Source: Chlorobaculum parvum NCIB 8327 (GTDB lineage: Bacteria; Bacteroidota; Chlorobiia; Chlorobiales; Chlorobiaceae). Taken from it: 64,000 nucleotides of DNA. Position 1 is the first letter of the stretch; every line of letters starts with the position of its first letter. Below are positions 14,473-18,333 of the stretch, in pieces. The DNA lies in assembly GCF_000020505.1 (NCBI RefSeq), contig NC_011027.1, forward strand, positions 480,001-544,000. Reading direction: 5' to 3'. The position numbers and the translations under genes are program-made. Under the pieces are notes generated by a model. It was given only the letters and a program-made list of their open reading frames with translations, was not told the origin of the DNA and did no database searches.

Positions 14473-15192
14473 TTACGCCTGTAATCTCAGCGGAAGTTCG
14501 AGGCCGTTGGCTTCGAGCAGGTCACGATCTGCGAGAATTTCTTTTGTCGGGCCGTCGGCGACGATTTTTCCTTTGTTCAGAATGCAGACCCGATCGCATG
14601 TGTCCCAGATGAAATCGAGGTCGTGCGAGACGGTCACCCTTGTCATCGGCAACTCGTTCACCAGCTCGATGAGTTTGCGGCGGTTGCGCGGGTCGAGGTC
14701 GGAGGTCGGCTCGTCCATCACGAGCAGCTCCGGCTGCATGACGAGTACCGCCGTGATGGCGGCAAACCGTTTCTGGCCTTGCGACAGGTGTGCAGGTGGC
14801 TTGTCGCGCAGCTCCCAGAGTCCAAACATCCGGAGCAACTGTTTGGCTTTGGCGCGGCTTTCGTCCTCATTCATGCCGAGGTTTATAGGGCCGAAGAGCA
14901 CGTCGTCATAGAGCCTCGCCATGAAAAGCTGGTCGTCCGGTTTCTGGAACACCAGCCCCACCTTTTTTCGGATTTGCTCAACTGTTTTTTTGTCCGCCTT
15001 CACCTCTCCAATCCGAATAGATCCCTCCTGCGGCAGGAACCAGCCGTTGAGATGGTTGACAAGGGTCGATTTGCCCGCGCCGTTCGATCCTGCAATGCCG
15101 AGCGACTCGCCCTTGCCGAGCTGAAGGTCGATGCCGTCAAGCGCGCGTGTGCCGTCGGGATAGGTATAGGCGAGTTGTTCGATGGCGATCAA
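14473..15192 (-). CDS. cbiO: Energy-coupling-factor ATPase of the Ni/Co uptake system
   Basis: This 239-residue cytoplasmic ATPase powers the CbiMQO-type importer. Motifs: Walker A GSNGAGKST near 36, Q-loop VGLVFQKPDDQLF (the QxPDxQ form typical of ECF ATPases), signature LSQGQKR, Walker B LLVMDEPTSDLD, and switch histidine TVSHD. It is the last gene of the OMP-cbiM-cbiQ-cbiO run, 23 bp after cbiQ. With NikR and a NikR-type dyad upstream, nickel is at least as likely as cobalt, so nikO would be an equal name. Confidence 0.92.
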   Translation of the reverse strand: MIAIEQLAYTYPDGTRALDGIDLQLGKGESLGIAGSNGAGKSTLVNHLNGWFLPQEGSIRIGEVKADKKTVEQIRKKVGLVFQKPDDQLFMARLYDDVLFGPINLGMNEDESRAKAKQLLRMFGLWELRDKPPAHLSQGQKRFAAITAVLVMQPELLVMDEPTSDLDPRNRRKLIELVNELPMTRVTVSHDLDFIWDTCDRVCILNKGKIVADGPTKEILADRDLLEANGLELPLRLQA

Positions 15193-15215: not shown

Positions 15216-15971
15216 TCAGAAAAGATACCGGATCAGGCCGAAAAGCGTTCCGGCAATGGCGACGGCGGCAAGGTCGTTTGCTTTGAGGGCGAGGGCTGGG
15301 CGTTGTTCGGCAAGCGCCGTGCGGAAACCTCGCGCGTTCATGGCCATGTAAATCCGTTCGGCGCGTGCGGTCGTCCGGATGAGCAGCGAACCGATAAGTT
15401 TCGCGGTGACGAGCGCGCCTTTGCCGTGGCCATCGAAGCTTCGCAGGTCGCGCGCTTTCTGCATCATTCCGGCCTCCTCGGCAAGCAGAAAGCTGTAGCG
15501 GTACACGAGCAGCAGTTGTGTGACGAACACCTCCGGCACGCCGAGGCCGCGCAAGGCCGTGCCGAACCGGTGGAACGGCATGACGGCCATGAGCCAGAGC
15601 AGGGTGGAGAGGGTGAGCAGGGTTTTCAGCACGATGACCGTCGCCGAAATCATACCTCCGGTGATGCTGAATCCGGCAATGGTCAACGCGGTTGTGCGGT
15701 CAAGAAAGAGATTCCCTGCGGCCATGAACGCGATGAAGGGCGAGACGATGACGAGCCGTTTGAGTATCGGCACAAGCTGGACGGGTGCGGCGGTGAAGAG
15801 CAGCAGCGGAATGGCTGCGAAGGCGAGCACTCCGGCAAGATCGAATTTCGGGATGGAGACGACGACAATGATGAATATGGCGAGAATGATAATCGCTGAG
15901 CCGTCTCCGACAGGCAGTCTGTACGATGAAGCTGAATCGTGCAGACTGCCGATGGTGAAGCGATCCGTCAC
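15216..15971 (-). CDS. cbiQ: Energy-coupling-factor transmembrane protein CbiQ
   Basis: The 251-residue membrane protein scaffolds the ECF importer and couples ATP hydrolysis to CbiM. It has about five hydrophobic segments. The cytoplasmic coupling motif of the family, A-R-x-x-R-S-x-x-x-x-x-x-G, appears here as KARDLRSFDGHGKG and later as RAERIYMAMNARGF. The start overlaps the end of cbiM by 4 bp, which indicates tight translational coupling. Confidence 0.9.
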   Translation of the reverse strand: MTDRFTIGSLHDSASSYRLPVGDGSAIIILAIFIIVVVSIPKFDLAGVLAFAAIPLLLFTAAPVQLVPILKRLVIVSPFIAFMAAGNLFLDRTTALTIAGFSITGGMISATVIVLKTLLTLSTLLWLMAVMPFHRFGTALRGLGVPEVFVTQLLLVYRYSFLLAEEAGMMQKARDLRSFDGHGKGALVTAKLIGSLLIRTTARAERIYMAMNARGFRTALAEQRPALALKANDLAAVAIAGTLFGLIRYLF

Positions 15972-16996
15972 GATTGCGTTGCCGCCGCTGAGTTGTTGCG
16001 GCGGTTGCGGAACAACAGACCTGCAGCGCCGGAAAGCAGCAGCACCATCAGGCTTCCGGCGATGCCGGAGAACGAAGTGCCGACGTTGACGGGTGAGTTC
16101 GGCGATGTGGTTTGATTGTCCGTATGCCTGAAGTCGTAGTCCGGCAGGATGGCCGCCTGTTCCTGAAGTCCGGCCAGCAGCTCGTGAGCATGTTCATCAG
16201 GCGAGGCCAGCTCCTCTTTGCCGGTCACTTTTGCAATCGACCACTCCAGTCCATCCGGGTTTGACGATGCGAACCAGGAGAGCGTACCGCCGATGGCGAG
16301 CGCGGCCACGAAGAGGCTTGCAGTCACGAAGCCGGTTTTCGGTGCGCGAATTTCGGAGGTTGTCTGCAGAAGCCCCGGTTCGGTCGAACGGATGAAGGCG
16401 AGCACGCCCCAGGTCAGCACGCCTTCGGTGATGCCGATGGCGGCGTGGATCGGTAGCATGAAAAGCATGAAGGTGTTGAACGGCAGGTCGGAGATGCCGG
16501 ACATGGTGGTTTGGAGTACCACCGAGAAGGCTCCGGCAAGCAGCCCGAGTGTGGCGGCGGCGATGCTTGCCGTGGCGAGGCGCACCGGAGAATCTCCACT
16601 CCCCGCGATGGGCCGATAGATGAATGGCCAGGCGATGAAGGCCGGGATGAAGGCCATGTTGAAGATGTTGCAGCCCAGCGCGAGCAGTCCGCCGTCCGCG
16701 AAAAAGAGCGCCTGGATTACCAGCACCGAGGCAAGCGTGATGAAAGCCCGCCACGGCCCGAGCAGCACGGCGAGCAGCAGTCCGCCGCCGATATGCCCGC
16801 TCGATCCCGTGCCCGGAATGGTGAAGTTGATCATTTGTGCGGCGAACACGAACGCGCCGAGTACGCCCATCAGCACGGTTTTCGAACCGTCCGAATCGGC
16901 GGCGGTTTTTCGGGCCGACCAGCCGATCATTCCGGCGCTGACCGCCCAGAACGTGCCGCCGACAACCGGTGAGAGCAATGCGTCTGACATGTGCAT
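15968..16996 (-). CDS. cbiM: CbiM-type metal-binding component fused to a CbiN-like PDGLE domain
   Basis: The 342-residue protein is the substrate-specificity subunit. The N-terminus MHMSDALLSPVVGG places His2 at the metal site, as in all CbiM/NikM proteins, which fixes the start at 16996. The CbiM core with SSGHIGGGLLLAVLLGPW spans about 1-215. A linker and membrane helix lead to SNPDGLEWS (PDGLE domain, CbiN/NikN-like), a periplasmic loop, and a last helix ending in positively charged residues. Fusion of M and N functions explains the absence of a separate cbiN. Substrate is Ni2+ or Co2+; NikR nearby favours nickel, while the B12-dependent pigment enzymes of these bacteria make cobalt plausible. 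Confidence 0.92.
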   Translation of the reverse strand: MHMSDALLSPVVGGTFWAVSAGMIGWSARKTAADSDGSKTVLMGVLGAFVFAAQMINFTIPGTGSSGHIGGGLLLAVLLGPWRAFITLASVLVIQALFFADGGLLALGCNIFNMAFIPAFIAWPFIYRPIAGSGDSPVRLATASIAAATLGLLAGAFSVVLQTTMSGISDLPFNTFMLFMLPIHAAIGITEGVLTWGVLAFIRSTEPGLLQTTSEIRAPKTGFVTASLFVAALAIGGTLSWFASSNPDGLEWSIAKVTGKEELASPDEHAHELLAGLQEQAAILPDYDFRHTDNQTTSPNSPVNVGTSFSGIAGSLMVLLLSGAAGLLFRNRRNNSAAATQS

Positions 16997-17019: not shown

Positions 17020-17814
17020 TCAGAAGCGTATCGTTGCGCCGGCGAGCAGCGTCGTATCGGTTTCAGCGTCGTTCAGGCCGCTCCGGATGCCGATATCGAG
17101 GTCGGTATAGTCGCTGACCGCGTAGATCAGGCCGCCGATAATGTAGGCCGGATCGGTATCAGCATCCTTGTCCGAATTGGTCTCGATGCCGATATCGCCT
17201 ACAGCTCTGAGCTTGTCGGTCACGTTCAGTTCACCAGCCATCGATGCGTACCAGATATTTTTTCTCGACGTTTCGCTGAGTTCGTCGAGCTTGTATTCGT
17301 TGTGCCTGTAGCCAAGGTTGAAGTGAAAGGTGGCCAGTTTGGCTTCGCGCGTGGCGATGAGCGTTACGTCACCCGAAACCTTGCCGGTGCCGAGGCCTTT
17401 ATCGTCATCGCCGGTCGGCAGGGTGAGTCCGGGTTTGAGCGCGAGGCTGAAGCCGGTGTCCGGCATCTCGTAAAAGCGCCATTTGATTTGCAGAGCCAGA
17501 TCGCCATAGCCGCTTTCATCGGCCACTTTGACGCCATTCTCTTTTTCGGTGTACCACTCCCAGGGAAGACCGGCGACCAGGTCGATGTTGCTGGTCAGGC
17601 CGTAGGTGAAGGTGGTCCCAATGGCTCCGCCGGTCAACTTGTATGAGGTTCCTCCCTCGGTTTCCTTGTCTCGGGCGGATTCAAATCCGATTTCAATCTG
17701 GCTGTGCCCTTTGCCCTGGGTTCCGGTGTCGTCGGTCTGGAGCGGCATGGCAGCAAAAGTCTGCGTTGAACAGAGCATGAGCGCCGAGGTGAGAAGCTGG
17801 ATTTTTTTCTTCAT
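17020..17814 (-). CDS. Outer-membrane beta-barrel protein (MetA/transporter-like) heading the metal-uptake operon
   Basis: From ATG 17814 the product is 264 residues with a clear signal peptide (MKKKIQLLTSALMLCSTQTFA). The frame is open for 20 more upstream codons, but that start would drop the signal peptide inside the protein and run through the operator. The mature part has alternating short strands (GFSLALKPGLTLPTGDDD, FHFNLGYRHNEY) and ends in a phenylalanine (TIRF), typical of outer-membrane barrels. The closest family I recognise is PF13557 (MetA-pathway/DUF3078-like barrels). It lies 23 bp before cbiM, behind a NikR-type dyad, so a metal-complex porin role is inferred. Confidence 0.75.
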   Translation of the reverse strand: MKKKIQLLTSALMLCSTQTFAAMPLQTDDTGTQGKGHSQIEIGFESARDKETEGGTSYKLTGGAIGTTFTYGLTSNIDLVAGLPWEWYTEKENGVKVADESGYGDLALQIKWRFYEMPDTGFSLALKPGLTLPTGDDDKGLGTGKVSGDVTLIATREAKLATFHFNLGYRHNEYKLDELSETSRKNIWYASMAGELNVTDKLRAVGDIGIETNSDKDADTDPAYIIGGLIYAVSDYTDLDIGIRSGLNDAETDTTLLAGATIRF

Positions 17815-17836
17815 GGAGCGGCTGTTCTTGATTGAT

Positions 17837-17865
17837 GATAGCATGAAAATAAGAATAGTGCTATC
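17837..17865 (-). promoter_or_regulatory. NikR-type operator dyad
   Basis: GATAGCA at 17837-17843 and TGCTATC at 17859-17865 form a perfect 7-bp inverted repeat with a 15-base spacer. Half-site centres are 22 bp apart, the same geometry as the E. coli NikR site (GTATGA-N16-TCATAC). It lies 22 bp upstream of the start of the outer-membrane-protein/cbiMQO operon and downstream of nikR itself. Base identity differs from E. coli, so the assignment rests on geometry and context. Confidence 0.6.
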
Positions 17866-17928
17866 GCCAGACAATACGTAACGGGGTTGAATCGGTTGCT
17901 GTCGAAAAATATTGCAGCTTCGCGACGG

Positions 17929-18333
17929 TCAATCAGCGGATGAGAGGGAGAGGTCGAGATGCTTGACACCGACCAGCACCTTGAGGGCGCTCGAAAGCTT
18001 TTCGATGTCCGGGGCGTTGCCCTTGACGGCGATCACTTCGAGGCAGTTCTCGTGGTCGAGGTGTACGTGCTGGGTCGAGATGATGAGGTCGTGGAAGTCG
18101 TGCTGGATGTCGATGAGGCGGTTGACCAGCTCGCGTTTGTGGTGGTCGTAAGTCATGACGATGGCTCCGGCTACCAACCCGCCTTCGGCGGTGGTTTTGC
18201 GGAGCAGCTCGTTGCGAATGAGGTCCCTGAGGGCTTCCGACCGGCTCTGATAGCCTTGGCCTTTGATGTGCCGGTCGAAAGCCTCGATCAGTTCCCTGTC
18301 GAGCGAAATGCCGAAGCGGTACAGGTCGCTCAC
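17929..18333 (-). CDS. nikR: Nickel-responsive regulator NikR
   Basis: The 134-residue protein has an N-terminal ribbon-helix-helix DNA-binding domain (LYRFGISLDRELIEAFD ... YQSRSEALRDLIR) and a C-terminal ACT-like metal-sensing domain. The square-planar nickel ligands are all present: His78, His89, His91 and Cys97, matching His76/87/89/Cys95 of E. coli NikR. It represses or controls nickel uptake genes. It begins 4 bp after the end of nfnL and is followed by the dyad and the metal-uptake operon, which is its obvious target. Confidence 0.94.
   Translation of the reverse strand: MSDLYRFGISLDRELIEAFDRHIKGQGYQSRSEALRDLIRNELLRKTTAEGGLVAGAIVMTYDHHKRELVNRLIDIQHDFHDLIISTQHVHLDHENCLEVIAVKGNAPDIEKLSSALKVLVGVKHLDLSLSSAD

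Follow-up and report, generated by a model that had tools for sequence, protein, structure and literature searches.

A predicted NikR operator ahead of an outer-membrane barrel and a nickel-type ECF importer in Chlorobaculum parvum, and barrel relatives beside metal importers in several phyla

Analysis of a 64-kb stretch of the Chlorobaculum parvum NCIB 8327 genome (hereafter the window; coordinates count from its first base) and of related genomes revealed, ahead of an outer-membrane barrel gene and an importer operon, a dyad whose half-sites are NikR-like and which overlaps a single sigma70-like promoter arrangement; its presence follows that of NikR. We consider it probable that the NikR-type dyad and promoter drive a nickel-starvation operon, barrel-nikMN-nikQ-nikO, in which the barrel acts as the metal entry channel. 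Comparison established the predicted operator, its promoter geometry, the gene order, the barrel fold and the linkage of barrel and importer, beyond which we infer repression by Ni-NikR and passage of metal. Specifically, nickel-loaded NikR would occupy the dyad and block the promoter, and barrel and importer would be made together when nickel falls. The barrel, a 12-stranded TonB-independent COG4313-type channel, would pass nickel ion or a small complex across the outer membrane; from there, the ECF importer would move nickel through the inner membrane for [NiFe]-hydrogenase. A wider reading, toward which we lean with more reserve, is that a cross-phylum COG4313 subfamily serves as the TonB-independent partner of divalent-metal importers, doing likewise for cobalt and ferrous iron after repeated duplication into operons for nickel (NikR), for cobalt (cobalamin riboswitch) and for ferrous iron (feoA-feoB), where it would have adopted the switch of each.

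Gene order and promoter geometry around the dyad

All genes of the run lie on the minus strand in the order nfnA (20815-19898, the upstream end of the run described here), nfnB (19786-18338), nikR (17929..18333), dyad, barrel (17020..17814), cbiM with a fused PDGLE domain (15968..16996), cbiQ (15216..15971) and cbiO (14473..15192). The nickel-responsive repressor NikR contains both the RHH DNA-binding domain (PF01402, 2.7e-10) and the NikR_C nickel domain (PF08753, 2.8e-31), scores 148.9 bits against a cut-off of 105 with NCBIfam NF003381, and was aligned with the solved NikR structures 2bj1, 2ca9 and 1q5v. Its QH...HVH...C residues align with the nickel ligands in 1q5v and 2bj1; in E. coli NikR, we take these ligands to be H76, H87, H89 and C95. 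The importer comprises a CbiM/NikM substrate component (PF01891, 9.2e-55), whose N-terminal Met-His and a later His align with those of 4m58, its fused NikN-like PDGLE domain (PF13190, 9.4e-31), a CbiQ/NikQ transmembrane T component (PF02361, 3.4e-26) and a CbiO/NikO ATPase (ABC_tran, 1e-29), for which ECF ATPase models score 233 and 218 bits, under their equivalog cut-offs. The M, T and A components and the N function of an ECF nickel/cobalt importer (Nik/CbiMNQO) are thus all present. The order of a barrel heading cbiM-cbiQ-cbiO, as claimed in an earlier note on this DNA, was confirmed, but the importer, with its PDGLE domain, is better named nickel type (NikMN-like) than CbiMQO, given that a separate cobalt-type CbiM system is encoded elsewhere in this genome (see below).

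The gaps between barrel and cbiM and between cbiQ and cbiO are 23 bp each, and cbiM and cbiQ overlap by 4 bp, a spacing that fits one operon. As the earlier note had stated, nikR is the next gene upstream, at 18333-17929 and 114 bp from the barrel. It starts only 4 bp past nfnB, so its transcript is probably shared with nfnB rather than started at the dyad promoter. In the retrieved nikR loci, nfnA-nfnB-nikR stay linked with two exceptions (L138 and L144), even where the importer lies elsewhere (L140, L145, L149, L152 and L153).

The predicted operator, the perfect 7-bp inverted repeat GATAGCA-N15-TGCTATC, occupies 17837..17865 on the minus strand, just upstream of the barrel gene as had been reported, with 22 bp between its end and the start codon (ATG at 17814). 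It is the single exact copy in the 2.29-Mb genome, with spacers of N13 to N17 allowed, and a search of the same genome for further NikR-type sites found none besides this one. However, the stand-alone weight given to the repeat had been too great: the window holds eight perfect 7-bp repeats with N15, against a rough expectation of ~4 (64000/4^7), which would suit a chance palindrome. On its own, the dyad is at chance level, and its meaning rests on comparison between genomes. The window arms agree by inspection with the half-site GTGTTAC at 5 and 4 of 7 positions.

A -10-like hexamer, TATTTT (17846..17851), lies inside the dyad, where TTATTTT is conserved in the spacer, and a -35-like hexamer, TTGTCT (17869..17874), stands 17 bp before it (both on the minus strand). 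A simple promoter/terminator scan of the window did not list this TTG-17 bp-TATTTT arrangement; across genomes, 37 of 40 sites have a TTG at precisely this 17-bp distance ahead of the TATTTT position. One arm of the dyad falls within the promoter spacer and the other directly after the -10, which would be the geometry expected for a repressor blocking RNA polymerase. A terminator or riboswitch at the dyad was also considered and rejected, as the window gave no Rfam match and no T-run follows the dyad.

Conservation of the dyad and the assignment to nickel

The comparison set comprised 61 Chlorobiaceae genomes, 43 of which encode NikR, and for these 43 the scan covered the 200 bases that precede the leading gene of each nickel-type importer operon. 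We found a dyad with at most one mismatch in all 43, versus 1 of the 11 NikR-negative genomes with a nickel-type importer (Fisher p = 4.6e-10, a value that is descriptive and uncorrected for kinship, because the genomes are related and the motif was derived from part of those later counted). Scored against RTRRCAC-N13-RTGYYAY or its forward counterpart RTGYYAY-N13-RTRRCAC, 40 of the NikR-positive sites match exactly and three with one mismatch; 41 are reversed and two forward (G075 and G027). Among 2580 order-1 resampled control sequences, exact matches never occurred and one-mismatch matches made up 0.3%. The dyad thus proved to be conserved upstream of orthologous operons, the check that the earlier note had proposed for its NikR-type label, with the correction that the conserved core (17838-17864 in the window) lies one base inside the arms first described.

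The lone NikR-negative genome with a dyad (G064) has a one-mismatch match before cbiM/nikM, and the whole 1.5-kb upstream flanks of the 11 NikR-negative importers yielded no other, although these stretches precede cbiM/nikM itself and the operator of an earlier gene could escape past the flank. Broken down by importer type, the dyad occurs in 37/37 genomes with NikR versus 0/3 without for the type found in the window, and in 6/6 versus 1/8 for the NikM2 type. Two drafts were excluded from these counts, namely G014, in which nikR was not detected and the contig ends ~170 bases before the barrel, and G011 (77% complete); G014 does carry the dyad. Together with five genomes without a hydrogenase match, of which four have no CbiM match and one (G036) has a cobalt-type CbiM, they make up the remaining seven NikR-negative genomes. 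At the whole-genome level, the promoter-containing pattern matched 41 sites in 36 of the 61 genomes and none in the control. A looser scan with two mismatches matched all 61 genomes and the control about as often, so only strict dyad matches are informative.

The dyad follows the importer rather than nikR: it is in place in G082, G074, G066 and G034, where nikR lies elsewhere (on a different contig and followed by other genes), and it is retained in G032 and G067, where the barrel is absent or decayed. Across the family, the dyad has invariant positions in its arms, and spacer positions 8-10, 12 and 20 are more variable. This pattern, kept in all NikR-positive genomes, refutes the chance palindrome, to which we now give virtually no credence. 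It is also very improbable that the dyad is the target of another regulator or an RNA hairpin. The pairing with NikR is read from sequence, and two of the 41 pattern sites (G009 C123 and G062 C94) stand without a query importer next to them; nevertheless, the dyad tracks NikR over 54 genomes, including those in which nikR lies elsewhere, and its absence from all 20 iron, cobalt or orphan barrels tested argues against a regulator other than NikR. The lack of a T-run and of an Rfam family also speaks against a hairpin, and the arms resemble the published NikR half-site as given in the available text of PMC545781.

A second site lies between barrel and cbiM in G061, G068, G075 and G080, two of these sites reading more like direct repeats, and the quasi-palindromic GTGNCAC form may let half-sites flip. 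One locus (L042 in G006) has two barrels in tandem, each with its own dyad, and another (L050 in G018) has a tandem pair of dyads before the barrel.

NikR was absent from all five genomes without a match to the NiFe-hydrogenase profile PF00374 and present in 43 of the 56 with one (p = 0.0014, uncorrected for kinship; the match in G075 is weak). The hydrogenase match of G003 is without the first 51 profile positions. The C. parvum genome itself contains, at locus L069, a second CbiM system of cobalt type, whose transport domain begins with MHIMEG and which has a second barrel beside CbiM. A cobalamin riboswitch is located ~400 bp upstream of this barrel, from which it is separated by a 119-aa open frame. 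Since cobalt appears to have its own riboswitch-linked system, nickel is the likely metal of the NikR-linked importer, a preference over cobalt that draws also on the NikR-type operator.

The barrel and its metal-importer neighbors

The barrel (264 aa, with a signal peptide at about residues 1-21 by inspection) matches PF13557 at 7.8e-24 and 85.5 bits versus a cut-off of 22. Its AlphaFold2 model (pLDDT 86.9, pTM 0.80) has 12-13 strand elements, the first at residue 38, in keeping with a 12-stranded barrel of the 4rl8 fold. The top fold match was FapF (Z 24.0), which is a secretion channel, closely followed by the COG4313 channel 4rl8 (Z 23.8, 2.8 A over 241 residues, 14% identity) and then by KdgM/NanC porins (Z 19-21). 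Neither a plug domain nor a 22-strand barrel, the marks of TonB-dependent transporters, was found, PF13557 being the only domain detected at E 0.001, and a PDB sequence search with the barrels returned no relative. The protein is acidic (39 D+E versus 22 K+R after residue 21).

Within Chlorobiaceae, the barrel is the first gene in 37 of the 43 NikR-linked importer operons (in G022, its coding sequence is split over two frames), so that the linkage with cbiM claimed for C. parvum does hold in its relatives. The other six operons lack it, and none of the 11 NikR-negative nickel-type importers has a barrel within its 1.5-kb flank, which indicates that the barrel is not indispensable. It is kept in G018, G063 and G073, whose importers belong to a different NikM type (39-42% identical to that of the window), and in G067 a mere remnant precedes cbiM (by eye). 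In L036 (G003), an intact dyad and barrel precede a damaged importer: cbiM breaks off at about residue 64, no cbiQ was found and cbiO is spread over two frames.

Paralogues of the barrel occur with other metals. In nine Chlorobiaceae loci, one stands directly before a cobalt-type cbiM, and a cobalamin riboswitch was found upstream in all eight searched (L068 was left out); L155 duplicates L051. Four loci (L060, L061, L062 and L219) have a paralogue before feoA-feoB, and these share an upstream AT-rich 23-bp element, TTATTTRGAYTAATTNNAAATAA. With at most one mismatch, this element occurs at nine sites in the 61 genomes and at none in the control, with a FeoA match at eight of the nine loci. In L253 and L260, an LbtU-family siderophore porin lies between the element and feoA; the first 25 residues of the L253 porin resemble those of feo-linked PF13557 barrels, as if one had replaced the other. 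On the barrel tree, cobalt barrels form one clade (100/100), iron barrels fall among the nickel ones and L219 sits on a long branch. At least eight Chlorobiaceae barrels have no importer as direct neighbor, with more in L209, L210, L212, L214, L218 and L226. We did not infer a copper link for barrels near a CopA-type ATPase (L057, L211, L212 and L218), and because other genes intervene in L211 and L212 we did not treat this neighborhood as an operon.

A scan of GTDB genomes returned 344 barrel relatives. Among the best 80 of these, 36 loci lie outside Chlorobi, in 32 assemblies (four give two loci each) that include Nitrospirota, delta-proteobacterial lineages, Nitrospinota and Desantisbacteria, with 45-51% identity to the window barrel. 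Within 3 kb, 17 of the 36 loci have a nickel/cobalt ECF importer (eight of them also NikR) and 13 have Feo genes (~2 kb away in L338); L301 and L327 show a cobalamin riboswitch with HupE/CbiD or CbiK, other cobalt/B12 genes that bring the loci with a metal context to 32 of 36 in this set of best matches. For the other four, no metal gene was recognized near the barrel in L310 and L337, and in L297 and L333, from two Nitrospirota assemblies, the barrel lies between cheA-like and chemoreceptor-like genes (L333 by sequence only). Rfam detected a cobalamin riboswitch in 9 of the 16 outside loci submitted, and in seven of these nine it ends 16-39 bases before the barrel match. Among 10 nickel-type outside loci, the best-scoring upstream NikR-like dyad (N12-14) showed no mismatch in four, one in two, two in two and three to four in two, versus never and 0.6% for zero and one mismatch in 1000 resampled sequences. 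Syntrophaceae and Smithella relatives have the forward form of the NikR signal before the same barrel. The scope is wider than the earlier note had it, taking in cobalt and iron importers and other phyla as well.

In a tree of 55 barrels, the four context labels need 20 changes (minimum 3; shuffled mean 28.4), and Chlorobi and outside rows split on two sides of one branch; the metal appears to switch often inside each side, and metal context seldom. By rough contrast, no query importer lay within ~5 kb of six more distant barrels (L220-L225), which are weakly related and come from other families of the phylum to which the window belongs; the queries were mostly Chlorobi proteins. The recurrence of relatives next to importers of nickel, cobalt or iron in several phyla suggests that scarce metals probably have a dedicated doorway in this barrel. 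It is most likely a channel through which scarce divalent metals cross the outer membrane independently of TonB, and which has been repeatedly re-assigned among nickel, cobalt and iron.

The main doubt concerns the cargo, because the COG4313 channels characterized so far are tied to hydrophobic compounds. The dyad could be a NikR operator even if the barrel carries a hydrophobic or organic compound and is kept in the operon by history, and the description of Pput2725 as nearly closed (available text of PMC4493636) would agree with this. We regard such a cargo as unlikely, given metal importers as neighbors in several phyla, the 20 metal changes and the metal context of so many outside loci. 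A variant of the metal-channel reading, which we entertain tentatively, is that metals cross the barrel bound to ligands (e.g., in nickel-histidine or thiol complexes) and not as free ions. Sulfidic water should contain very little free nickel, a scarcity that would favor such complexes, and in L253 and L260 the position of the barrel before feoA is occupied by a siderophore porin; on the other hand, nickel, cobalt and iron are all represented in the barrel family, and no common chelator seems evident.

In its boldest form, the metal-channel reading would make the processed N terminus of the barrel, Ala-His-Pro-Leu-x-Thr-Asp-Asp (cleavage site by inspection), a relay site for metal, similar to the Met-His at the N terminus of NikM/CbiM. 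By analogy with Pput2725, this N terminus is expected inside the lumen, and its His is found in 36/36 members outside Chlorobi. However, Met replaces that His in the window barrel and in some of its relatives, and L220, a relative with no detected importer, also has the His, both of which count against a relay.

Comparison with known systems

The closest parallel lies in the NikR-nikMNQO regulons of delta-proteobacteria, with the half-site GTGTTAC at N13/14 (Rodionov et al. 2004, PMC545781), which share NikR, an ECF nickel importer and the type and spacing of half-site with the operon described here. Two GTGTTAC-like half-sites at N13/14, with at most one mismatch to our derived motif, precede the importer operon in all 43 NikR-positive genomes, and the arms of the G073 site match fully; arms and spacing equal the reversed Desulfotalea psychrophila signal, GTAACAC-N13-GTGTTAC (PMC545781). 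The available part of that article deals with delta-proteobacteria only and names nikK and nikL, but no outer-membrane barrel, as extra components. For green sulfur bacteria, our predicted operator would define a nickel regulon in which both half-site orientations occur within one bacterial family. For Chlorobi, nickel-type Nik/CbiMNQO appears to be listed for seven of nine genomes and NiFe-hydrogenase for eight (Zhang et al. 2009, PMC2667541); in the main text of that study, as available, the term "outer membrane" occurs 0 times and neither operator nor barrel is mentioned. Among the literature matches listed, none of the titles and abstract openings ties PF13557/COG4313 barrels to nickel, cobalt or Feo importers.

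HopV, HopW and FecA3 of Helicobacter pylori belong to protein families other than the PF13557 barrel, and we know of no operon that joins the NikR-regulated outer-membrane proteins of this species to an ECF importer. The resemblance lies in NikR control, which the accessible text of PMC5385501 describes for all three; of these, HopV is predicted to form a barrel of non-TonB type, and findings on its loss suggest that the cell then contains less nickel. The COG4313 channel Pput2725 (4rl8) is likewise a 12-stranded barrel, but it is implicated in hydrophobic uptake and encoded among aromatic-degradation genes, and its narrow lumen and poor conductance accompany the argument, in the part of that report available, that it carries hydrophobic molecules (PMC4493636). 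Metal-linked barrels would correct a misleading family name (phenol degradation), and a barrel family that appears to switch metal partners across phyla would offer a directly testable set of dedicated channels.

According to the available portions of two sources, siderophore-free entry of nickel, cobalt and ferrous iron across the outer membrane is commonly credited to general porins (PMC7726332, PMC5378763). The latter also describes Francisella FupA, which provides a high-affinity outer-membrane route for ferrous iron ahead of FeoB. FupA differs from the barrel in size (557 residues), in belonging to a family described as unique to Francisella and in expression independent of iron and Fur, but it resembles our proposal in placing an outer-membrane step ahead of an inner-membrane metal importer.
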